64,000 nucleotides of DNA, taken from contig MKVB01000006.1 in assembly GCA_001899085.1 (NCBI GenBank), positions 208,611 through 272,610 of the forward strand, written 5' to 3'. Below the pieces are notes generated by a model. That model saw nothing but the letters and a program-made list of their open reading frames with translations, made no database searches and was not told the origin of the DNA. This document shows, piece after piece, positions 690 through 12,099 of this stretch. Each line of letters starts with the position of its first letter. Position 1 is the stretch's first letter. The DNA comes from Devosia sp. 66-14 (lineage in GTDB: Bacteria; Pseudomonadota; Alphaproteobacteria; Rhizobiales; Devosiaceae). Made by a program: the position numbers and the translations under genes.

Positions 690-1460
690 ATGACCGAGAT
701 CCTCCTGCTCGCCGCCGGGCTCATTGCCGGCACGCTCAACTCGCTGGCCGGCGGCGGCTCGTTCGTGCTGTTTCCGGCGCTGCTCGCGGCAGGCGTGCCG
801 CCGGTCATTGCCAATGCATCCAACACCTACGCCTCGCTGCCCGGCTACATGAGCGGCGCTGCCGGGTTCTGGAAGGATATCGTCAAGCATCGCGACAAGC
901 TGCTGCCCTACACGGGCATCGCGCTGATCTTCGGCTTTGTCGGCGCTGAACTGCTGCTGCATGTTTCGAACGAAGCATTCGGCAAGATAGTCCCCTGGCT
1001 GATGCTGTTCGCCGTGCTCATGTTCGCCTTCGGCGGCCGGATCAACGCGTTCATCGCCCGTCGCGCCGGAGCGGCGCGGGGAATGAAGATTGCCGGCACC
1101 GTGGCGATCTATGCGCTGCTGGCGGCATTGTGCGTCTATGGCGGGTTCTTCAATGCCGGGCTCGGTATCCTGCTGCTGGCCTTCCTGGCGCTGGCCGGGC
1201 TGCCCGACATCCATGCCATGAACGGGCTGAAGAGCTGGATTTCGAGCGCGGTGGCGCTGATCGCCGTGGTGCGCTTTGCGCTCTCGGGCTCGATCGACTG
1301 GTATCATGGCTCGTTCGCGCTGGTCGGCGCGACGATCGGCGGCTATGTCGCGGCGCGGCTGTCGCATCGCGTGCCCACACTATGGCTGCGGGCCCTCGTC
1401 ATCATCTATGCGAGCGGGTTGACGGTGTGGTTTTTCTGGCAGGCATACGGCGCCGCATAG
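690..1460 (+). CDS. TSUP (TauE/SafE) family membrane permease
   Basis: A 256-residue, very hydrophobic protein with about eight predicted membrane segments and the internal duplication typical of the TSUP family, whose members export or take up sulfite, sulfonates or other organic anions. The family glycine-rich start is clear: AGTLNSLAGGGSFVLFPALL near residues 12-31, followed by NASNTYASLPGY. The second half repeats the theme with GGFFNAGLGILLLAFL near residue 150. An AGGGA-type Shine-Dalgarno lies 7 nt before the ATG. It is monocistronic, with unrelated genes on either side. The substrate cannot be read from sequence. Confidence 0.85.
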   Translation: MTEILLLAAGLIAGTLNSLAGGGSFVLFPALLAAGVPPVIANASNTYASLPGYMSGAAGFWKDIVKHRDKLLPYTGIALIFGFVGAELLLHVSNEAFGKIVPWLMLFAVLMFAFGGRINAFIARRAGAARGMKIAGTVAIYALLAALCVYGGFFNAGLGILLLAFLALAGLPDIHAMNGLKSWISSAVALIAVVRFALSGSIDWYHGSFALVGATIGGYVAARLSHRVPTLWLRALVIIYASGLTVWFFWQAYGAA

Positions 1461-1558: not shown

Positions 1559-2611
1559 ATGAACAGACTTGTGGCGTTTCTGGTTGCCGCATTTCTCGTG
1601 CTGGGCGGTCAATCAATTGCAGCGGAAGCGACAGGGACTGCGCTCGCAGTGGACGTCGATGCCCGCGCCGAGCTCGGCGGCAATGTCCGCGTGCTGACTG
1701 CCGGTGCGGACCTGGCAATCGGCGAGACCGTGATCACCGATGCCCATGGCCTGGTGCAGATCAAGTTCTCGGACGAGACCGAACTGGTGGTGGGGCCCAA
1801 CTCGCAACTGGTGCTGGAAGACTACCTGCTGCGCAACGACGGCTCGGTCGGCAAGCTCGCGCTCAACGCGCTTTCGGGCTCGTTCCGGTTCGTCACCGGT
1901 AATTCCAGGAAGGACGACTATGCGATCAAGACGCCGACCGGCACGATCGGCATTCGCGGTACGGCCTTCGATTTCTTCGTCGCGGACGGGGTGACGCGGG
2001 TGCTGATGTACCACGGCACGGCGATCCTGTGCGGCACCGGCAATTCGTGCGTCACGATGGCTGGGACCTGCGAAGTGGGGCAGACCGACAGCCGGCAATC
2101 GGAACTGCTCGGCGCCTCGTTCACCGCCGACACCACACAGCGGGACTCGCTGCGCCAGAGCTTTCGCTATGCGGACAACCAGCAGCCACTGCTGGAATCG
2201 TTCCGTATCGATCAGGTCCCGGAGTGTCAGCTGTCCGGCCCCACCCGCGCGGCGGCGACCAGCATCGCGCAGGTGGTCGAGGTTTGTCAGCCGGTGATTG
2301 CGGAACAATATCAGGGTGTTGTTGCCCGCTGGGGCGAATGCGGCGCCGCGGTTGCCGGCTACCTCGCCGGGCTCGATCTGCCGGCGGACCAGCAGATCGC
2401 CGATCTGGCGGCAGAACTCGCAGACCTGTTCGAGCCGGGCCCGAACTGCAGCGCCAACGAAACCGAGCTGCCCGAAGCACTGTTGCTGGCGGCCGGGCAA
2501 TCGGCGGACCAGGGGCAACAGGAGGCGATCAGCGAGATCGCCGCCACCATCCGCGACTGCAGCGCCATACAGACGCGCGCGATCCAACCGGCGCAGGCCA
2601 GCCCGAACTGA
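1559..2611 (+). CDS. Secreted FecR-domain protein, paralog 1 (long C-terminal tail)
   Basis: 350 residues from the ATG at 1559 (a GTG at 1544 is possible, but only the ATG has a GCAGG element at normal spacing). A signal peptide (MNRLVAFLVAAFLVLGGQSIAA) precedes a FecR-like beta-jellyroll (about residues 45-155) with [38 protein letters not shown] and [17 protein letters not shown]. Three cysteines follow in the spacing ILC-x5-C-x6-C, and a fourth sits near EC in VPECQL; the two paralogs at 5849 and 10746 share this pattern. Unlike them, it has about 120 extra helical residues with four further cysteines. There is no FecI sigma factor or TonB receptor nearby, so iron signalling is not supported. 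Likely periplasmic; function unknown. Confidence 0.8.
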   Translation: MNRLVAFLVAAFLVLGGQSIAAEATGTALAVDVDARAELGGNVRVLTAGADLAIGETVITDAHGLVQIKFSDETELVVGPNSQLVLEDYLLRNDGSVGKLALNALSGSFRFVTGNSRKDDYAIKTPTGTIGIRGTAFDFFVADGVTRVLMYHGTAILCGTGNSCVTMAGTCEVGQTDSRQSELLGASFTADTTQRDSLRQSFRYADNQQPLLESFRIDQVPECQLSGPTRAAATSIAQVVEVCQPVIAEQYQGVVARWGECGAAVAGYLAGLDLPADQQIADLAAELADLFEPGPNCSANETELPEALLLAAGQSADQGQQEAISEIAATIRDCSAIQTRAIQPAQASPN

Positions 2612-2620
2612 GCGGCGCCA

Positions 2621-4708
2621 TCAGTCGCGGCGGATCCACACCGACGTATCGTGGAAGGCGGCGCCGCCGAAGGGACGCACCTGATCCGAACCGATCAGCG
2701 TGTTGATACCGACGCCGTTGCGATGCGCCGAGTTGGGGTGGATGCCCTCGGCGATCAGCACGCCGCGCTGCATGCCATCGAAGAACACCGCCTTGAGGGC
2801 GACTTCGCCACGACGGTTGCCCAGGGTGACCGGGTCACCATTGGCAATGCCGAGATCGGCGGCATCCTCAGGGTGCACGAAGACCGTCGGCTCGGGCTGA
2901 CGCTTCCGGCTGCCGGCAGTCTCGGCGAAGGTGGAGTTGAGGAAACTGCGCGATGGACTGGTGGCGAGGCGGAACGGCGTCTCGGCGTCGACCCGTTCGG
3001 TGACGTCCCAGTGGTCGGCAAAGCGAGGCATCTCGGAGGGATCGCAGACCCAGTTATAGCCCTTGAGCCGCGCCACTGCGTCCCAATCCGGCTCGAAGCG
3101 ATAGCGCCTGTCGGGCCAGGCGAAACCGTCGGCGAAGCGCGCCTTCTCGGCCGGCCAGGCGCCGTCGATAAAGCCGGTCTTCTCGATCTCGTCGAGTTCG
3201 CCGAAGTTCGAGCGGCGGAAAGTCTCGGCGACCATCTCGCGATCGGTGAGATGCATCGAGGGATGGTCGGTGCCGAGGCGGCGCAGCAGTTCGTTGACCA
3301 CCTCGAAATTGGAGCGGCACTCGCCGGGAGCATCGACCAGCTTGGGGCCATAGAGCAGGCGGGTATGACCGCCGCGGCGGTAATAGTCGTTGTGCTCGAG
3401 GAACATGGTGGCGGGCAGTACGATATCGGCGAGCTTTGCCGTATCGGTCATGAACTGCTCGTGCACCACGGTGAACAGGTCGTCGCGCGCGAACCCGGCG
3501 CGCGTCAGGCCCTGCTCCGGGCTGACATTGACCGGATTGGTATTCTGGATGAACAGCGCCTTGACCGGGCCGCCGCCATTCAGCGCCTTTTCATCCCCGG
3601 TCAGCACCTTGCCGATCTCGCACATGTCGAGCTCGCGCCCGCCCGGGCCCATGTCGGCGCCGGTGATCATCGACTTGTCGAGCTTCCAGGAGCCCGAATT
3701 GGAGTGAAAGGCCCCACCGCCCTGGTGCTGCCAGCTGCCGGTCATCGCCGCGACCGAGAGCGCCGCATGCATCGAGGTCGAGCCGTTGCGCTGGCGCGTG
3801 AAGCCGTAGCCGAGGCGGAAGTAGGTTCTTGGCGTGGTGCCGACGAGATGGGCGAAGGCTTCGATCTCGGCCACATCAAGGCCGGTGATGGCTGCCGCCC
3901 ATTGCGGGGTACGCGTCGCAAGGTGCGCTTCGAACTCAGGCGAAAAGTCGGTGTACTTCGCCATGTAGTCGCGGTCGGCGAGACCATCGCGCAGCAGCAC
4001 GTGCATCACCGCGACGGCCAGCGCGCCATCGGTTCCCGGCCGTACCACCAGGGCCATGTCGGCCTGCTCCATGGTGGCGTTGCGGTAGATATCGATGGCG
4101 ACGATCCTGGCGCCGCGCTCCTTGCGGGCGCGGACGGCGTGGGTCATCACGTTGACCTGGGTGGCAACGGCGTTGGTGCCCCAGATGACGACGCAATCGC
4201 TTTCGGCCATCGACTCGGGGTTCGGCCCGGCGAGGACACCAGTGCCGGCGATGAAGCCCGGCCACGCGGTGCCGGTGCAGATGGTGTCGTATTGCAGCGA
4301 GTAGCCGCGGGCATGGCGCAGCCGCTCGATGCCGTCGCGGTGCACATGCCCCATGGTGCCGGCGTAGAAATAGGGCCAGATCGCCTCGGGGCCATTGGCG
4401 GCCTCGATCGCGAGCCAGCGCGCCACGATCTCGTCGAAAGCCTCGTCCCAGCTGATCCGCTGCCACTCGCCGGATCCCTTTTTGCCAACGCGGCGAAGGG
4501 GATGGGTCAGGCGGTTCGGGTGATGAATCCGTTCGGCATAGCGGGCCACCTTTTCGCAGATGACGCCCGCCGTATACGGATCGTCCTTGGCGCCACGGAC
4601 CCTGCCGATGGTCCGCGCGTCGATCACCTCGACGTCGAGCGCGCAGGTCGATGGGCAATCGTGCGGGCAAACCGAACGGGCAGTGCGGGGCGTCGTAATG
4701 GCGTTCAT
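2621..4708 (-). CDS. Molybdopterin oxidoreductase (DMSO-reductase superfamily)
   Basis: 695 residues, a normal length for a soluble catalytic subunit of the DMSO-reductase superfamily. The N-terminus carries a [4Fe-4S] motif, CPHDCPSTC followed by GVICEK near residue 49 (C-x3-C-x3-C-x~30-C). Cofactor-binding blocks follow: WDEAFDEI, the segment YDTICTGTAWPG where the molybdenum ligand normally falls, VIWGTNAVATQ, and a C-terminal molydopterin dinucleotide-binding barrel from about residue 575 (PFRLATSPSRSFLNSTF, GIANGDPVTLGNRRG). There is no Tat signal, so it is probably cytoplasmic. No iron-sulfur or membrane subunit gene is adjacent. Substrate unknown; related enzymes act as formate- or thiosulfate-type dehydrogenases. 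It faces paralog 1 of the FecR proteins tail to tail, 10 nt apart. Confidence 0.88.
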   Translation of the reverse strand: MNAITTPRTARSVCPHDCPSTCALDVEVIDARTIGRVRGAKDDPYTAGVICEKVARYAERIHHPNRLTHPLRRVGKKGSGEWQRISWDEAFDEIVARWLAIEAANGPEAIWPYFYAGTMGHVHRDGIERLRHARGYSLQYDTICTGTAWPGFIAGTGVLAGPNPESMAESDCVVIWGTNAVATQVNVMTHAVRARKERGARIVAIDIYRNATMEQADMALVVRPGTDGALAVAVMHVLLRDGLADRDYMAKYTDFSPEFEAHLATRTPQWAAAITGLDVAEIEAFAHLVGTTPRTYFRLGYGFTRQRNGSTSMHAALSVAAMTGSWQHQGGGAFHSNSGSWKLDKSMITGADMGPGGRELDMCEIGKVLTGDEKALNGGGPVKALFIQNTNPVNVSPEQGLTRAGFARDDLFTVVHEQFMTDTAKLADIVLPATMFLEHNDYYRRGGHTRLLYGPKLVDAPGECRSNFEVVNELLRRLGTDHPSMHLTDREMVAETFRRSNFGELDEIEKTGFIDGAWPAEKARFADGFAWPDRRYRFEPDWDAVARLKGYNWVCDPSEMPRFADHWDVTERVDAETPFRLATSPSRSFLNSTFAETAGSRKRQPEPTVFVHPEDAADLGIANGDPVTLGNRRGEVALKAVFFDGMQRGVLIAEGIHPNSAHRNGVGINTLIGSDQVRPFGGAAFHDTSVWIRRD

Positions 4709-4861
4709 GGCGCGGATGATTTATCACGCAGCTCCGTACGGTAACAGAGCGGCCGATCGCGCGTGATGTCACGCCGCGCCATATCGAACGAACGCTGGCC
4801 GCGGCCACCGATGGCGATGGCCGCAGATTTCACCTGAGGGAGGTCAGCGGTGCTTGGCCGA

Positions 4862-5053
4862 TTATTCTTCGGCGCGGATCTTCTTCAGTTCCGCATTGTA
4901 GATGCGCAGGCTGAGGTAGATCGCGAAGGTAAAGCACACGATGCCGGTGATCTGCGACAGCGGCAGGGCAGCAAACAGCGGCAGGTGCTTGGCGGCGATC
5001 AGGGCGACAACGAGCATGAGGACAGACACGACCTCAGCAGAGCGGAACAGCAT
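4862..5053 (-). CDS. Small two-helix membrane protein, unknown function
   Basis: 63 residues with two predicted membrane helices (about 8-22 and 33-49) and a charged tail, NAELKKIRAEE. An AGGGGAG ribosome-binding element lies directly upstream of the ATG at 5053. The opposite-strand reading frame lacks membrane or domain character, so this strand is the likelier coding one. I do not recognise the family. It lies downstream of sugE on the same strand, but 180 nt away with a stem-loop between them, so co-transcription is doubtful. Confidence 0.55.
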   Translation of the reverse strand: MLFRSAEVVSVLMLVVALIAAKHLPLFAALPLSQITGIVCFTFAIYLSLRIYNAELKKIRAEE

Positions 5054-5145
5054 GGCTCCCCTTTACTTTCATTTCGAGATGCGCTGACGCTCGGCGCGGA
5101 ATAGCTCCGCATCACGGAGCCCCCGCAAATCACGTTACGGAAAAG

Positions 5146-5171
5146 CGCAAAAGGTTCCATCAACTTTTGCG
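5146..5171 (-). terminator. Stem-loop between sugE and the small membrane protein
   Basis: An 8-bp perfect stem (CGCAAAAG / CTTTTGCG) closes a 10-nt loop and is extended by weaker pairing to flanking CGG/CCG. On the minus strand it follows sugE by about 60 nt. No long uridine run follows (CTTTTCC only), so a terminator role is tentative. A second small hairpin (GCTCCG / CGGAGC) lies at 5104-5120. Confidence 0.35.
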
Positions 5172-5233
5172 TTATCCGAGAATTTTGGCCCGGCAGGCTG
5201 GCGCGGAAGCAACAGCTCCCCTGCCCCGCCGTT

Positions 5234-5548
5234 TCAGCTGACCAGCTTGAGACCGACGATGCCGGCGACGATCAGCCCGATACTGGCCAGCCTGAGGGCC
5301 GTCGCCGGCTCCTGGAACAGCAGCATGCCGAGCACGGCCGTGCCGATGGTGCCGATGCCGGTCCAGATGGCGTAGCCGGTGCCGACCGGCAGCTCACGCA
5401 GCGCGATACCGAGCAGAACCACGCTGGCAACCATGGCGGCGACGGTGATGGCGGTCGGCCCGATCCGGCTGAAGCCATCGGTATATTTGAGACCGATCGC
5501 CCAGACGACCTCCAGCAATCCGGCGATGACGAGAAAGACCCAGGCCAT
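5234..5548 (-). CDS. sugE: Guanidinium exporter, SMR family (SugE/Gdx)
   Basis: 104 residues with four membrane helices, the standard small multidrug resistance length (about 105). [21 protein letters not shown] carries the membrane glutamate (E14) that binds substrate and proton, and the helix-4 region ends [15 protein letters not shown]. The Gdx/SugE subgroup exports guanidinium rather than polyaromatic cations. The ATG at 5548 has AAGGAG 9 nt upstream; a longer in-frame extension is non-homologous. Two hairpins with ACGR loops just upstream look like a guanidine-II riboswitch, which independently supports the guanidinium assignment. It works as a dual-topology dimer in the inner membrane. 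Confidence 0.92.
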
Positions 5549-5566
5549 GGAAATCTGCTCCTTGCG

Positions 5567-5646
5567 CGGGCCGTCCCGGCTGAATTTCGGGGATCGCGAG
5601 AGGGATCGCGAGAGTGCGACCCTGGGATCGCCGGGGTCGTCCCCAG
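5567..5646 (-). promoter_or_regulatory. Guanidine-II (mini-ykkC) riboswitch upstream of sugE
   Basis: On the minus strand there are two hairpins with ACGR tetraloops. P1 (5631-5646) is CTGGGG-ACGA-CCCCGG, 6 bp with one G-U pair. P2 (5567-5578) is CGGG-ACGG-CCCG, 4 bp. The linker is 52 nt. P2 ends 3 nt before the AAGGAG ribosome-binding site (5558-5563), which fits translational control in which guanidinium stabilises the hairpins and frees the site. A TATATC hexamer (5655-5660 on the complement) lies just upstream of P1 and could be the -10. Paired ACGR hairpins are the defining feature of this class, and gdx is one of its usual targets. Seen by eye, not by covariance search. Confidence 0.8.
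5590..5613. repeat. Perfect 12-bp tandem duplication in the riboswitch linker
   Basis: The unit GGGATCGCGAGA occurs twice in direct succession (5590-5601 and 5602-5613). It lies wholly within the linker between the two guanidine-II hairpins and accounts for 12 of its 52 nt. Confidence 0.9.
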
Positions 5647-5848
5647 CGGCGCCCGATATAGGACCGCACGGCGACAATGAGAAGTGCAGGAGGCGCAGAT
5701 CTGCGGGTCCGGGACAGCAAATCGCTGCAAGCGGCGCTTGCATGCGTCGAGGGCTGGCGCTTCCACTAATACTTGTGTAGTAGACGCGCCGATCGCACCC
5801 GCCGGGGGGCCGGGCGATATCCATGTCAATGCATAGCTGAGGACGCAT

Positions 5849-6676
5849 ATGCACAAGATGATATGGCGAGCCCCCCTCGCCTGCGCACTGGTTGCGCTCG
5901 GTTTTCTATCTTTCTCCGGTTCTGCTCTGGCCGCCAGCGGCAAGGCGCTGGGCGTCAAGCCGGCGGCCGCAGTCGAAACCAAGTCCGACACCAAGACGCT
6001 GACGGTCGGCGCCGACGTGTTCATCGGTGATCGCGTGGTCACCGGCGCGGACGGACAGGTGCAGATCAAGTTCACCGACCAGACCGAACTGGTGGTCGGC
6101 CCCAACTCGGCGCTGCTGATCGAGGACTACCTGCTGCGGCAGGACGATTCTGCCGGCAAGTTCGCCATCAATGCGCTGTCGGGCACTTTCCGTTTCACCA
6201 CCGGGCGAGCGCCGAAGGACCGCTACATCATCAAGACCCCGACTGGCACGATCGGCGTGCGCGGGACCTCGTTCGACTTCAATTCGAGCAGCGAGGAAAC
6301 CAAGGTCCTGCTGTATCACGGCCAGGTCATCCTCTGTAACCTCGACAAGACCTGCGTGACGCTCGACGACACCTGCGAGCTGGGCGCCTACGACCTCGGC
6401 CGGTCCGAGATTCTGGGGCACACCGACGACTTCAAGGGCGCCGCCCGCGAAGATCTGAAAGCTTCGTTCCGCTACGCCCAGTCACAGGCTCCGCTGCTCG
6501 GCGCGTTCCGGGTCGAGGAGGCCAAGGAGTGTTTCCAAAAGGGGTTCGTGGCCAATACGCCACGTAACCTGCTGGACGGGGACAGCAACGGCACCCCGGT
6601 CGTCGACAACGAGGAACCTATCCCCGATGGCTGCTGGCCCGACGAGTCGGCCGAGGGCGGCTACATGTGCAACTGA
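5849..6676 (+). CDS. Secreted FecR-domain protein, paralog 2
   Basis: 275 residues. A signal peptide ends near ALAASG (residue 30). The FecR domain spans about 48-160 with [38 protein letters not shown] and [17 protein letters not shown]. Cysteines fall at 163, 169, 176 and 228, the same places as in the paralogs, plus C262 and C274 in an acidic, proline-containing tail. GAGGA precedes the ATG by about 6 nt. Much closer to paralog 3 (10746) than to paralog 1. FecR proteins normally span the inner membrane and relay signals to a sigma factor; this one has a cleavable signal, no membrane helix and no FecI neighbour, so it is probably a periplasmic or surface protein of unknown role. It is divergent from sugE. 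Confidence 0.82.
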
Positions 6677-6715
6677 GCCGGCGCTCAGGGGCCAAGCCAC
6701 TAAAGCATTGGCGCG

Positions 6716-6747
6716 CCCCCGCGATTCTACAGTAGGGATCGCGGGGG
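6716..6747 (+). promoter_or_regulatory. 10-bp stem-loop enclosing the MFS gene's ribosome-binding site
   Basis: The perfect stem CCCCCGCGAT (6716-6725) / ATCGCGGGGG (6738-6747) has a 12-nt loop. Its 3' arm contains the purine-rich GGGGG that, with the following AGA, is the only Shine-Dalgarno candidate for the ATG at 6760. It could therefore sequester the site, or simply terminate transcription from the FecR gene upstream; no uridine run follows. Confidence 0.5.
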
Positions 6748-6759
6748 AGAATTCCTGCC

Positions 6760-7962
6760 ATGACCGAGACTGCCCAGCCGCGTCTGCCGATGGCGGCGCT
6801 CATTTCCGCCAGCCTGTTGTCGATCGGCGTGGGCTATGCCTCGACCGCCCCCTACGACGCGATCATCGCCATCGATGCGCTGCAGATCGGACACGGCGAT
6901 TTCGCCCTGATCCTGACGCTGGCCTCGATTGTGGGGGTGGTCGCCTCGGTGGCACTCGGCTGGCTGTCTGACCGGATCGGCGACCGCCGGCTGCTGATGC
7001 TGGCCACCACGCTGCTCGGCGCCGTCGGCATGGGCCTGATGTACTGGCTGCGCAGCCCGATGGCGTTCGTCATCGCCTATTGCGTGATCCTGCCGTTCGG
7101 CAACTCGGCGTTCAGCCAGACCTTTGCCTATGCCCGGGTCTACTACGACCAGACCCGCCCCAAGGACGCCGAGTTCCGCATCACCGTGCTGCGTTCGATC
7201 TATGCGGCATCGTGGGTGATGGTACCGCCGCTCGCCGGCTGGATCGCCGCGGTCTACCAGGTGTTCGACGTCTACCTGCTGGCGGCCGCCGCCTATCTCG
7301 TATGCGGGGCGATCTCGCTGACGATGCTGGCCGACCCCGCCACCCGCGTCGTCTCCGCCCCGCCCACGCCAAATACCGACGGCAAGGGCGGCATCGCGCT
7401 GCCGATGCTGGTCGGCATCTGCGGGGTGCTGCTGATCAACGTGGCGATCAAGGTCAGCGGCACGGCGACGCCGCTGGCGATGGTCAGCCATTTCGGCGGC
7501 AATATCGGAGATGTCGGCATCGCCGCCGGCATCGGAGCCTTGCTCGAGATTCCGCTGATGCTGGCCTGGGGGTTTCTCGGCCGGCGGTTCAGGAAACATA
7601 CGCTGATCGCAGCCGGGGCGCTGATCTATGCGCTCTACCAGGTGCTGCTGACGCAGGCGAGCGGGGTGACCGAGGTGTTCTGGCTGCAGGTGCCGCGGGC
7701 GGTAGCCATCGCGGTGCTGATGAGCGTTCCGATCAGCTACATGCAGGAGGCGATCCGCGGCCGCGTCGGCCTGTCGACCTCATTGCTCGACGTGACGGTG
7801 GTCGCCTCCGGCATGCTCTCGGCCGGGATTTTCGGCGTGGTGGCGGCGCCGGGGCGCTATCTCGAGCTGTTCTGGGTCGCGGCGGTGCTGGCCACCTGCG
7901 GCGCGGCTGTGCTGCTGGTGGCGCATAATGTGCTGCAACGGCGGCCGGCCGTGCAGCATTGA
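6760..7962 (+). CDS. Major facilitator superfamily permease
   Basis: 400 residues with about twelve membrane helices in two halves. The MFS loop 2-3 signature is present as GWLSDRIGDRRLLML near residues 67-81, and the second half has its counterpart WGFLGRRFRKHTLI near residue 270. Overall character (PYDAIIAIDALQ, many small residues, a 12-helix pattern without a long central loop) resembles the sugar-efflux SetA-like group, but the substrate is not determinable. A stem-loop overlaps the ribosome-binding site. The next gene on the same strand starts 44 nt downstream, so the two could be co-transcribed. Confidence 0.85.
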   Translation: MTETAQPRLPMAALISASLLSIGVGYASTAPYDAIIAIDALQIGHGDFALILTLASIVGVVASVALGWLSDRIGDRRLLMLATTLLGAVGMGLMYWLRSPMAFVIAYCVILPFGNSAFSQTFAYARVYYDQTRPKDAEFRITVLRSIYAASWVMVPPLAGWIAAVYQVFDVYLLAAAAYLVCGAISLTMLADPATRVVSAPPTPNTDGKGGIALPMLVGICGVLLINVAIKVSGTATPLAMVSHFGGNIGDVGIAAGIGALLEIPLMLAWGFLGRRFRKHTLIAAGALIYALYQVLLTQASGVTEVFWLQVPRAVAIAVLMSVPISYMQEAIRGRVGLSTSLLDVTVVASGMLSAGIFGVVAAPGRYLELFWVAAVLATCGAAVLLVAHNVLQRRPAVQH

Positions 7963-8006
7963 CAGCCGACGCGGCCCGGGCAAGCTCCGGCTGAGGAGAC
8001 AACGCG

Positions 8007-8795
8007 ATGGACAAGGCAAGTTCCGAGCACGGCCTGACCCGTCTGCGCTCGACCCTGAGGCTGCTCTATCATGGCAGTTCGAGCACGGCGCTGCGCTTCC
8101 AGTTCGCGGTGCTGCTGGTCGATCTGGCGATCATCGCCTTCTTCATCGCCACGCCGCTGCTGCGCGACCGACCGAGCTTCATCTGGATCGATGTGGCGGT
8201 GGCCGTGCTGCTGATCGCCGATCTCGTGGCGCGCGGCCTCGCCTCGACCGACCCGCTGCGCTGGCTCCGGCAACCGACGACGATCGTCGATGTGTTCATC
8301 CTCATCACCCTGCTGCTGCCGGCATGGCTGGCCAATTTCGGCTTCCTGCGCATCCTGCGGCTCTGGACGCTGTCGCAGAGCGGCGTGCTGTGGCGGCCGC
8401 TGAAGAAGTTCAAGCTGACGCAGTATCGCGAACAGGGCGAAGCCATCGTCAACATCGTGACGTTCCTGTTCCTGGTGTCAGGCTTCGTGCTGACGTTCTT
8501 CGCCAGCCCCGGCTCCGGCATCGAAGGCTATGTCGATGCGCTCTACTTCACCGTCACCTCGGTGACGACGACCGGATATGGCGACGTGACGCTGCCCGGC
8601 ACCGCCGGCAAGCTGACCTCGATTGCGGTGATGATCATCGGCATCACGCTGTTCGTGCGCCTCGCGCAATCGCTGTTCCGCCCGCACAAGGTGCTCTTTC
8701 CCTGCCCGCAATGCGGGCTGCAACGGCACGACCCCGATGCCGTCCACTGCAAAGCCTGCGGCCACCTGCTGAATATCCCCGACCCCGGGAACTAG
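8007..8795 (+). CDS. Potassium-channel-like protein with C-terminal zinc ribbon
   Basis: 262 residues. Membrane helices near 33-50, 58-76, 92-110, 147-166 and 202-222 frame a pore loop with the selectivity filter TTTGYGD at 187-193, the potassium-channel signature. The segment before the pore helix (FGFLRILRLW) has only a few positive charges, so voltage sensing is uncertain. The cytosolic tail carries CPQC (233-236) and CKAC (248-251), a four-cysteine zinc ribbon that is unusual on a channel. AGGAGA precedes the ATG. Its TAG stop overlaps the stop of the convergent glutaminase gene by three bases. Confidence 0.85.
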   Translation: MDKASSEHGLTRLRSTLRLLYHGSSSTALRFQFAVLLVDLAIIAFFIATPLLRDRPSFIWIDVAVAVLLIADLVARGLASTDPLRWLRQPTTIVDVFILITLLLPAWLANFGFLRILRLWTLSQSGVLWRPLKKFKLTQYREQGEAIVNIVTFLFLVSGFVLTFFASPGSGIEGYVDALYFTVTSVTTTGYGDVTLPGTAGKLTSIAVMIIGITLFVRLAQSLFRPHKVLFPCPQCGLQRHDPDAVHCKACGHLLNIPDPGN

Positions 8796-10627
8796 CGCGA
8801 CAGGGCGCGGATCTCGGCATTGGCGCGGCGCAGGCGCTCGGCGAGACTGGCGCCCACCGCCATCACCAGCGCGTTGTGTGCGGCCGGGGCGTTGGCCGCA
8901 AGGTCCTCGAGGCCATCGCGATCCAGCACCAGCGCGATACCGGCACTGACGGCGACGACGTCGGCGGTTCGGGGTGAGTGCCCGAACAGCGCCAGCTCGC
9001 CGAACACGGTGCCCGGCTCGACGGTGCTGACGCGGTGGCTCGGGGCGTTGCCGACCCGCACGGTGATATCGACATGCCCCTGGGTGAGGAAGAACAGCTC
9101 GTCGGCCCGGGCATTCTGGGCGATCAGCTTGGTGCCGGGCTCAAAGGACAGCGGGCGGAGCCGCTTCACCAAAGCGGCCAGCATGGCCTCGTCGAGACCG
9201 GCAAGCAGGTCGAACTCGGCGAGCGGCACGGTCGCGTCGGTCTGGCCGGTGCCGGCCTGTTCGAGGAGCCGGTCCTCGAAATATTCCAGCGCCTGGTCGA
9301 CATTGGGGAAGTGGATGTCCTGCTCGAAGCTATGCGGCAACTCGCCGGAAATGCTGACGACAGCGAAGCCCTTGCCGGCTTCCTGCAGGGTGCGGCGGGC
9401 GGTGTTGAGCAGGGTGACCGCGACACCATCGATGCGCAGCACGCGGGTCAGATCGAGGACGAAATAGTAGGCGCTGTCGAGGTCCTCGATGATCCGCCGC
9501 GTGACCCGTTCGGCCTCGATGAAGCCGAGTTCGGCCTGCAGCTCGTAGACGGCGATCAAGTGACCATAGCGATCGAGTTTCCGAGCCTGCTCGTGGCGGC
9601 GGACGCGCTTGGAGTGCACCTCGTCGGAGCGGTAGACACGGCGCAGCGGCACGAGGCCGCCGCCGCGATCCTCGAACAGATGCAGGCGGAAATTGGCCGA
9701 GATGTCCTCGCAGACCTTGACGCCGCGGGCACTGTTGCCGACTGCGTCGAGGCGGGGCGAGAAGGTGCCGATGCCGAGCTGGCCGGGGAGGACCGCGGCA
9801 ATGCCGCCCCCTACTCCACTCTTGGCCGGCAGGCCGACGCTGAACTGCCAGCCGCCGGCGTAGTCGTACATGCCGCAGGTGTTCATCACCGAGAGCACGG
9901 AGCGGACATTGTCGGTGCTGATGGCGCGTTGCCGCGTCACCGGATTGACACCGCCATTTGCGAGGGTGGCACCGATCATTGCCAGGTCGCGCGCACGGAC
10001 GAGCAGCGAACACTGGCGGAAGTAGAGGTCGAGATGCTCGTTGACGTCGCCCGAGATCATGCCGGCATTGAGCTCGAGGTAGGCGATGGCGCGGTTGCGG
10101 TTTCCGGTGACGGTCTCGGAGCGGTACACCGCCTCGTCGAGATCGAGGATGCGACCGGTGAAGCGCTGGAAGATATCGAGGATGCGCTGGTAGCGCTCGG
10201 CGTGGTCGGTGCCCTTGATCATGGCGCTGGCAGCGATGGCGCCGGCATTGACCATCGGATTGAACGGCCGGTTGTTGCGCTCGTCGAAGGTGATGGAGTT
10301 GAAGGCTTCGCCGGACGGCTCGACGCCGATATGGCGCAGCACCTCCTCGCGGCCGTGATCTTCCAATGCGAGAGCGTAGATCACTGCCTTGGAGACTGAC
10401 TGGATAGTGAAAAGCGCGTCGGTGTCGCCGACTTCGTAGACAAAACCGTCGGTAGTGGCGAAGGCCAGCGAGAACCGATCGGGATCGACTGCTGATAACT
10501 CGGGGATGTAGCTTGCCAACTCACCCGAAAGGTTGGGACGGTGCCGGGTGTAGAGGTCGTTGAGATATTGCCATACGGGCAATTCCTTGGGGGATATCCC
10601 GGTCGACCGCAGATCGACTTGTTGCAT
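8792..10627 (-). CDS. glsA: Glutaminase A with STAS and cyclic-nucleotide-binding domains
   Basis: 611 residues, about twice a simple glutaminase (about 310). The N-terminal 1-310 is a serine-dependent glutaminase of beta-lactamase-like fold: FTIQSVSK with S77 and K80, FNPMVNAGAIA, RNRAIAYLE and a C-terminal VCEDIS block. It hydrolyses L-glutamine to glutamate and ammonia. A STAS domain follows (about 345-455; YVLDLTRVLRIDGVAV-like strand and helix), then a cyclic-nucleotide-binding domain (about 480-600; VEPGTVFGELALFGHSPRTADV, the phosphate-binding cassette). The fusion suggests control by a nucleotide or partner protein; this is inference. Start ATG 10627; it is divergent from FecR paralog 3. 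Confidence 0.92.
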   Translation of the reverse strand: MQQVDLRSTGISPKELPVWQYLNDLYTRHRPNLSGELASYIPELSAVDPDRFSLAFATTDGFVYEVGDTDALFTIQSVSKAVIYALALEDHGREEVLRHIGVEPSGEAFNSITFDERNNRPFNPMVNAGAIAASAMIKGTDHAERYQRILDIFQRFTGRILDLDEAVYRSETVTGNRNRAIAYLELNAGMISGDVNEHLDLYFRQCSLLVRARDLAMIGATLANGGVNPVTRQRAISTDNVRSVLSVMNTCGMYDYAGGWQFSVGLPAKSGVGGGIAAVLPGQLGIGTFSPRLDAVGNSARGVKVCEDISANFRLHLFEDRGGGLVPLRRVYRSDEVHSKRVRRHEQARKLDRYGHLIAVYELQAELGFIEAERVTRRIIEDLDSAYYFVLDLTRVLRIDGVAVTLLNTARRTLQEAGKGFAVVSISGELPHSFEQDIHFPNVDQALEYFEDRLLEQAGTGQTDATVPLAEFDLLAGLDEAMLAALVKRLRPLSFEPGTKLIAQNARADELFFLTQGHVDITVRVGNAPSHRVSTVEPGTVFGELALFGHSPRTADVVAVSAGIALVLDRDGLEDLAANAPAAHNALVMAVGASLAERLRRANAEIRALSR

Positions 10628-10745
10628 ACAATTGACTCGCTGATGCCTAATGCGTAGTCAGATTAATCATTGTGCTATGCTTTGAGCAATAACGCTTCTG
10701 AATGACCCGAGCGGGGACGGCCAGAGTGGTGGGGAACAACACAAT

Positions 10746-11567
10746 ATGAGCACTTTCAAAGGTATGGCGGCCGCAGGGCTGTGGGTGGCATTGACGCTGA
10801 CGGCCCTGCCGGCAATGGCGGCGAGCGGCACGGCGCTGGGCGTCAATCCGCAGGCGGAGGCCGATACGTCGGGTCAGTCGCGGGTGTTGACCGTCGGCGC
10901 CGACATCTTCATCGGCGACAAGGTGAGCACCGGCGCCAAGGGCCAGGTGCAGATCAAGTTTTCCGACAAGACCGAGCTGGTGGTCGGCCCGAACTCTTCG
11001 CTGCTGATCGAGGATTACCTGCTGCGCGAGGATCAGTCGGCCGGCAAGCTGGCGATCAACGCGCTGTCGGGGACGTTTCGTTTCGCAACCGGCGGCGCGC
11101 CGAAGGATCGCTATGTCATCAAGACGCCGACCGGCACCATCGGCGTGCGGGGCACGGCGTTCGACTTCAACGTGGATGCGGAAGGCACCGAGGTGCTGCT
11201 GTTCCATGGCGCGGTCCGGCTGTGCAATCTCGCCGGCACCTGCGTCACGCTGGATGATACCTGCGAGATCGGCACCTACGACCTGACCCAGTCGACGATC
11301 CTCGGCGACCCCGCCGACCTGACCAAGGACCAGCGCGCCGCGCTGAAGGCGAACTTCAAGTATGCCGAGGTGCAGAGCCCGCTGCTGCGGCAGTTCTGGG
11401 TGGAGAACGCCCGGCAGTGCTTCAACAAGGGCTTCGTCAACGACACACCGCGGAGCCTGATGGACGGCGATGACGACACGCCGGCGGTCGAGCAGCCGTG
11501 TGGAGACAACGGGTGCTGCGGTGACAGTAACTGCTGCGGCGAAGACGACTCGGAGTGTGCGAACTAG
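10746..11567 (+). CDS. Secreted FecR-domain protein, paralog 3 (cysteine-rich tail)
   Basis: 273 residues. A signal peptide ends near ALPAMAAS; the FecR domain (about 45-158) matches paralog 2 closely ([55 protein letters not shown]). The shared four cysteines are followed by a tail with six cysteines in 20 residues (CGDNGCCGDSNCC...C), acidic and probably disulfide-bonded or metal-binding. GGGGAA lies upstream of the ATG, and an extended -10-like TGCTATGCT lies at 10672-10680. No FecI or FecA is nearby. Function unknown. Confidence 0.82.
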   Translation: MSTFKGMAAAGLWVALTLTALPAMAASGTALGVNPQAEADTSGQSRVLTVGADIFIGDKVSTGAKGQVQIKFSDKTELVVGPNSSLLIEDYLLREDQSAGKLAINALSGTFRFATGGAPKDRYVIKTPTGTIGVRGTAFDFNVDAEGTEVLLFHGAVRLCNLAGTCVTLDDTCEIGTYDLTQSTILGDPADLTKDQRAALKANFKYAEVQSPLLRQFWVENARQCFNKGFVNDTPRSLMDGDDDTPAVEQPCGDNGCCGDSNCCGEDDSECAN

Positions 11568-11769: not shown

Positions 11770-12048
11770 TCAGGCCTTCAATGTCTTCGGCTTGGACTTG
11801 GCTTTGGGCTTGTCTTTGGCCTTGGCGACCTTGGGCGCCTTGGCGGCCTTGGCCTCCGCCTCTCGTATCTTGGCCACGGATGTGCCCATGTGGCCCCAGT
11901 TCTTGTTGTCGACCTCTTCGATGACGACAAAGGTATATTCGGGCTTCTTGTTCAGGATGCGCTGCAGCATCTCGGTCGTCTCTTTGTAGATCTGCAGCTT
12001 CTGCTCGTAAGTCGCGCCGTCGGTGATCTCGATACGAACGTAAGGCAT
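11770..12048 (-). CDS. Tautomerase with lysine/alanine/proline-rich C-terminal tail
   Basis: 92 residues from the ATG at 12048, chosen over the one 15 nt upstream because it puts proline directly after methionine (MPYVRIEITDGATYEQKLQIY), as catalysis requires. Residues 1-60 are a 4-OT-type domain (MLQRILNKKPEYTFVVIEEVDNKNWG). Residues 61-92 are built almost only from K, A, P with few others (AKAAKAPKVAKAKDKPKAK...), like histone-H1-type bacterial tails. Such a tail is not part of the family; it may bind nucleic acid or another polyanion. Paired with the downstream 61-residue tautomerase. Confidence 0.78.
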   Translation of the reverse strand: MPYVRIEITDGATYEQKLQIYKETTEMLQRILNKKPEYTFVVIEEVDNKNWGHMGTSVAKIREAEAKAAKAPKVAKAKDKPKAKSKPKTLKA

Positions 12049-12099
12049 GGTTTCCTCCCCCAAAGCCGGGGGGAGGATGCGGCAGCCGAGGTACGCTCG

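Follow-up and report, generated by a model that had tools for sequence, protein, structure and literature searches.

Results

The region considered here is a 64,000-nucleotide stretch of the genome of Devosia sp. 66-14 (contig MKVB01000006.1, positions 208,611 to 272,610; hereafter the window), which carries three genes encoding FecR-domain proteins that we refer to as paralogs 1 to 3 (Table 1). A preliminary description of this DNA had reported these genes and attributed to them a signal-peptide-like N-terminus, a FecR domain and a common cysteine spacing, all of which were found where it had placed them. Each protein scores far over the Pfam cut-off for FecR (PF04773), and a Pfam scan at E ≤ 0.1 detected nothing besides this domain in any of the three. 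At the N-terminus of each there is a hydrophobic stretch containing AxA-like sites; there is no lipobox within the first 40 residues, and no second strongly hydrophobic segment was found, the highest later hydropathy window being 1.36. Judged from hydropathy, the three appear to fit exported soluble proteins, and the earlier contention that they look secreted, and distinct from the membrane-anchored FecR sigma regulators, holds up in that neither a membrane anchor nor a FecI partner was found.

The C-terminal region of paralog 1 (residues ~236-341) is predicted to be helical and has four additional cysteines, the tail of paralog 2 is acidic with two additional cysteines, and that of paralog 3 is acidic and cysteine-rich. 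A separate identity for the paralog 1 region was considered and set aside, the first five Foldseek rows being FecR-type or retention-module structures and the remainder weak. The fold of PupR is common to the window proteins, the alignment of paralog 3 stopping at PupR residue 251. Ratios of nonsynonymous to synonymous substitution (dN/dS) were 0.29 for paralog 1 against L098 and 0.36 against the more distant L055 (numbers with L denote loci from related genomes), 0.15-0.22 for paralog 2 (against L060, L056 and L044) and 0.32 for paralog 3 against L077; values of this order indicate that all three genes are maintained by purifying selection. Membership of other families was rejected on score: the LapA-type retention module (NF033682) gave 23.3-25.9 bits against a curated cut-off of 50, LipL45 33.8-37.7 bits against 350, and Lsa33 20.5-36.2 bits against 420. 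In the Devosia genome itself there was no match at E ≤ 0.01 to DUF4880 (PF16220), for which the search matches 3 of 14 control genomes, nor to STN (PF07660), matched in five of the 14 by a model that may miss the regulators' own STN.

The same genome (5.72 Mb in 13 contigs, the window lying on contig C6) contains PF04773 at five places, i.e., three in the window, one on contig C3 and one on contig C4, and CHASE2 (PF05226) at two, on contigs C3 and C4. On contig C3 the FecR gene, a close fourth paralog (L037, 7842-8660, minus strand), stands 22 bases ahead of a co-oriented gene for a 721-residue protein combining CHASE2 with an adenylate/guanylate cyclase domain. On contig C4 the fifth, more distant FecR gene and a CHASE2-EAL gene converge; this FecR gene was matched neither by a profile of the three window proteins (E ≤ 0.01) nor by the family profile (E ≤ 1e-12). 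Since FecR adjoins both CHASE2 genes of the genome, the three window genes are orphans. The L037 locus also encodes a small single-domain cyclic-nucleotide-binding protein (9221-9775, minus strand), relatives of which occur near the FecR-CHASE2-cyclase pair in many loci.

The association of FecR with CHASE2 extends to relatives. Across 61 genomes (this one and 60 relatives), searches at E ≤ 0.001 returned 107 FecR and 74 CHASE2 matches; a FecR match lies within 1.5 kb of 37 of the CHASE2 matches, within 3 kb of 47 and within 5 kb of 49, where uniform placement would predict approximately 0.34 within 3 kb (4.3 Mb genomes assumed and kinship ignored). Conversely, CHASE2 is found no more than 3 kb from 50 of the 107 FecR matches. 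In 35 of the 47 pairs the two matches are co-oriented, with FecR placed 5', and in 12 they are on opposite strands. When relatives in named genomes were taken as the best 80 of 135, a CHASE2 gene was present in 51 of these 80 loci (19 of 41 in L077-L117 and 32 of 39 in L118-L156). Gene calls came from a simple script, which missed the FecR gene of L115 that tblastn places upstream of CHASE2. The FecR gene of L128 (Pseudomonas) precedes an OmpA-family gene and then a convergent CHASE2-cyclase gene; in L145 (Azonexus) an OmpA-family gene comes after FecR and CHASE2 is divergent. Large proteins with GAF and HD_5 domains adjoin FecR/CHASE2 genes in two betaproteobacterial loci (L145, 8988-11984; L125, 10574-13630). 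A class-wide search with the family profile at E ≤ 1e-12 found matches in 108 of 290 genomes.

Within the genus of the window this type of FecR protein is universal (19 of 19 genomes), with 39 full-length copies, 15 of which have a co-oriented CHASE2 gene near and 24 of which do not. The 15 include two tandem copies in genome G008 that precede a CHASE2 fragment located at the end of a contig and containing two stop codons; a linked copy of G017 beside CHASE2, cut by a contig end, lies outside the 39, and the CHASE2 gene of G005, which adjoins a FecR gene of another type, was left out of the count. Of the 19 genomes, 17 have CHASE2 matches. In two, G001 and G016, the cyclase and its usual neighbour genes are present and the FecR slot between them is empty, with FecR orphans located elsewhere (two in G001, one in G016).

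A tree of 33 proteins, in which 'linked' denotes a co-oriented CHASE2 gene within two genes, shows orphans interleaved with linked copies; there are five label changes, at least two of them forced by well-supported branches. Paralog 2 falls inside a starred set of six orphans, paralog 1 is paired with L055 (98/98), and paralog 3 belongs to an orphan group with unstarred support (87/76). In this tree the three window proteins cluster with copies of the cyclase-linked type.

The spacing C-x5-C-x6-C-x51-C is the same in all three window proteins. In the 33-protein set every protein has cysteines C3 and C4 and 32 have C1 and C2, the single exception being without both of the latter; the pattern noticed in the preliminary description is conserved across this family-level set, in which additional cysteines in the tails show no conservation. 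Among 102 distinct FecR proteins, which include regions from other families of the same order, 54 have all four cysteines, six have C1 and C2 only, two have C3 and C4 only and 39 have none. Exact alignment columns gave the same counts. The remaining protein, from L116, has C1-C3 only, its gene being cut by a contig end; this Alcaligenaceae-labelled contig carries a gene of alphaproteobacterial type, with 55% identity to the query, and is possibly misplaced. Half a pair was seen in no complete protein. Both sets contain related sequences, only identical ones having been merged among the 102, and some loci overlap in genome (e.g., L039/L081, L044/L079, L054/L083, L056/L078 and L063/L080). The rows informative about pairing are those with at least one pair, together with L224 and L226, which extend past the C3 column. 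Proteins with C1-C2 and no C3-C4 are seen among relatives from other families of the same order, and the CHASE2-linked FecR gene of L113 (Bauldia; 7848-9191) has C3-C4 without C1-C2 and 20 cysteines in total, mostly in the tail. Because the conserved cysteines are gained or lost pairwise, we predict disulfides C1-C2 and C3-C4, a pairing that rests on their co-occurrence.

Seven further genes are annotated between positions 690 and 12048, encoding TauE, a molybdopterin oxidoreductase, SugE, an MFS transporter, an ion channel, a fusion of glutaminase, STAS and cyclic-nucleotide-binding domains, and a tautomerase. None encodes a sigma factor or TonB-dependent receptor, in agreement with the earlier remark that FecI and FecA are absent. 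Paralog 1 lies between TauE and the oxidoreductase, paralog 2 is divergent from SugE and paralog 3 from the glutaminase fusion. The order TauE, molybdopterin oxidoreductase, SugE, FecR, tautomerase, DEAD-box is partly kept in relatives. L098 has a 70% identical counterpart of paralog 1 adjoining the same oxidoreductase, and relatives of paralog 2 are likewise divergent from SugE in L039, L044, L056, L060 and L063. There is one FecR gene directly between SugE and tautomerase in L039 (= L081), two separated by the channel gene in L063 (= L080), and one in L044, L056 and L060, where MFS and channel genes separate it from the tautomerase, joined by the glutaminase gene in L056 and L060; the window has two copies in this stretch and its third between TauE and the oxidoreductase. 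We infer that the window copies derive from one slot by duplication. The genes had originally been described as interspersed with unrelated genes; the interspersion stands, and fits a conserved block whose FecR copies number one or two in relatives, with differing genes between them.

The divergent pair of FecR and the glutaminase fusion recurs in L054 (= L083), and this fusion is a possible cyclic-nucleotide link near paralog 3. Relatives of the ion channel occur near a FecR orphan in L044, L056, L060, L063, L103 and L117. Spread of the block by plasmids was considered and rejected: a near search returned eight records, and the five listed match the molybdopterin oxidoreductase only.

Table 1. 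Positions of the FecR genes and neighbouring features in the window
Feature	Position	Strand	Remarks
FecR paralog 1	1559..2611	+	350 aa; signal-peptide-like N-terminus, FecR domain, four conserved Cys
FecR paralog 2	5849..6676	+	275 aa; signal-peptide-like N-terminus, FecR domain, four conserved Cys
FecR paralog 3	10746..11567	+	273 aa; signal-peptide-like N-terminus, FecR domain, four conserved Cys
C1-C3 cluster of paralog 3	11223..11264	+	residues 160, 166, 173
C1-C3 cluster elsewhere			paralog 1 residues 158-171; paralog 2 residues 163-176
TauE/SafE-family transporter	690..1460	+	flank of block, outside proposed function
SugE-type SMR transporter	5234..5554	-	upstream boundary of paralog 2 slot
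Ion-channel protein	8007..8795	+	zinc-ribbon-like end (Zn_ribbon_3, under cut-off)
Glutaminase-STAS-cyclic-nucleotide-binding fusion	8792..10627	-	divergent from paralog 3
Tautomerase	11770..12063	-	downstream block boundary; DEAD-box gene next

Regulatory boxes upstream of the FecR genes were also sought. The CRP-type box TGTGA-N6-TCACA, with up to one mismatch, occurs upstream of none of 33 FecR genes and none of 475 others. At the same tolerance TGTT-N8-AACA precedes four of the 33 and 20 of the 475, too few to support a claim, and some GC-rich palindromes are commoner upstream of FecR genes, in only 5-7 genes each. The Clr box, in the consensus of PMC5498481, has six matches in the window with up to one mismatch, where 5.7 are expected, and none just upstream of a FecR gene.

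Discussion

There are strong grounds for regarding the three window proteins as orphan paralogs of the CHASE2-linked FecR protein. Their probable role is as partners in envelope sensing and not in the regulation of iron uptake, nor do they seem to form an entirely new system: a cysteine-paired and probably secreted family, they are a variant of the known FecR-CHASE2 module. The suggestion in the preliminary description that this might be an undescribed system is not sustained, since the window proteins are dispersed paralogs of the contig C3 protein whose gene precedes a CHASE2-cyclase, and FecR-CHASE2 clusters have been published (PMC9239204, PMC5192318). What looks new is that most copies in the genus have no co-oriented CHASE2 neighbour, that the window copies stand in a partly kept gene order under purifying selection, that two genomes have an empty FecR slot beside the cyclase and FecR at other places, and that the conserved cysteines occur pairwise. 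In the accessible FecR-CHASE2 literature, a scope mostly outside subscription journals, we found no report of orphan expansion or of the paired cysteines.

Analogues exist in other bacteria. Adenylate cyclases of Campylobacterota contain CHASE2, and the genes for most of them are clustered with one for an outer-membrane protein with a FecR domain (PMC9239204). The likeness lies in this clustering; however, those clusters include phosphodiesterase and TPR genes and their FecR protein is termed an outer-membrane protein, whereas in the genus described here extra FecR copies lie distant from the cyclase and have two cysteine pairs. The BiofilmReg operon of Burkholderia pairs a LysM-FecR protein with a CHASE2 histidine kinase (PMC5192318), and is similar in that an exported FecR-domain protein adjoins a CHASE2 receptor, but differs in its kinase receptor and in the LysM domain. 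In Sinorhizobium meliloti, SMc02177 has a FecR domain, is predicted to be non-cytoplasmic, is a target of Clr and is needed to limit secondary infection (PMC5498481). Its locus number lies between SMc02176 (CyaD1, a CHASE2-type cyclase) and smc02178, which has been placed near cyaD1 and clr; adjacency to cyaD1 is thus read from locus numbers, and the protein is likened to ours by description rather than by sequence. CHASE2 cyclases of S. meliloti respond to a plant ribosomal protein via the outer-membrane barrel NsrA (PMC13001267), and in Myxococcus a gene for a FecR-domain lipoprotein belongs to the pmxA locus (PMC8844925).

In proposing a mechanism, we suggest that the FecR protein would be exported by means of its signal peptide, presumably to the periplasm, where it would fold as a FecR beta-solenoid locked by two predicted disulfides, C1-C2 bridging a hairpin and C3-C4 fastening the C-terminal helix onto the solenoid. 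It would then bind the periplasmic CHASE2 sensor domain and set the output of the cyclase, presumably cyclic AMP (cAMP), according to cues from the envelope or the exterior. Orphan copies could serve the same CHASE2 receptor in trans, as alternatives to the linked partner; the empty slots of G001 and G016, with FecR located elsewhere, are what action in trans would allow, although these are two genomes only, which show gene content and not function. Our confidence in this general mechanism, secreted FecR proteins acting on CHASE2 receptors with orphans in trans, is evenly balanced. A more elaborate version, in which diverged, disulfide-locked and freely secreted FecR proteins share or compete for a single CHASE2-cyclase, their variable tails reading envelope cues and their conserved core reporting these as cAMP, is offered tentatively and seems rather unlikely in this exact form.

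The orphans might instead have left the CHASE2 module and become independent envelope proteins, acting at the surface, in the matrix or in metal binding through their variable tails. This is a substantial possibility, if somewhat short of an even chance. It sits uneasily with the conservation of the FecR core and both cysteine pairs in orphans just as in linked copies, and with the presence of orphans precisely in the two genomes where the linked copy is missing; moreover, no surface-attachment motif was identified, such motifs having been sought only through family scans. Partnership with CHASE2-EAL receptors, and hence cyclic-di-GMP instead of a cyclase, is suggested by the second CHASE2 gene of this genome, which has an EAL domain and its own FecR gene; that FecR protein is outside both profiles and the tree places the window copies with the cyclase-linked type, making this distinctly improbable.

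Least credible, to the point of being barely tenable, is that the window genes encode classical or degenerate FecR sigma regulators of iron uptake. The periplasmic FecR (CJM) domain fold is indeed shared with the FecR/PupR regulators (PMC7186176), but the window proteins lack a cytoplasmic anti-sigma domain, and neither an internal membrane segment (by hydropathy) nor a FecI or transducer was found. The genome has no DUF4880 or STN match, and no sigma factor is present among the seven annotated neighbours. The STN subdomain of PupR comprises residues 250-324 (PMC7186176), and the paralog 3 alignment ends where it begins.

Several observations weigh against a role for the window proteins as CHASE2 partners. 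Binding to CHASE2 is itself something that we infer; no CHASE2 gene lies beside any window copy, and no FecR match lies nearer than 3 kb to 27 of the 74 CHASE2 matches, some of which are at contig ends and others not. No box for a cAMP regulator is clearly enriched upstream of the FecR genes. In S. meliloti, smc02177 mutants are still responsive to the plant signal, and in the accessible account cleavable signal peptides are named for two sister proteins and not for SMc02177 (PMC5498481). The support given by the cysteines is also reduced by 37 of the 39 cysteine-less sequences, which stop before or at the C3 column and are little informative. Finally, G010 and G013 have orphans but no CHASE2 match (G013 has a 34% match to the cyclase domain only); a usual neighbour gene of the cyclase locus was also not found in either, and consequently the two genomes decide nothing.

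FecR-domain genes are still read as iron regulation, as in a 2026 paper on Leptospira (PMC13066512), yet the annotation 'FecR' need not imply this. The strong linkage of FecR with CHASE2, the two genomes with empty slots and the predicted disulfide pairs provide concrete candidates for a missing periplasmic link.
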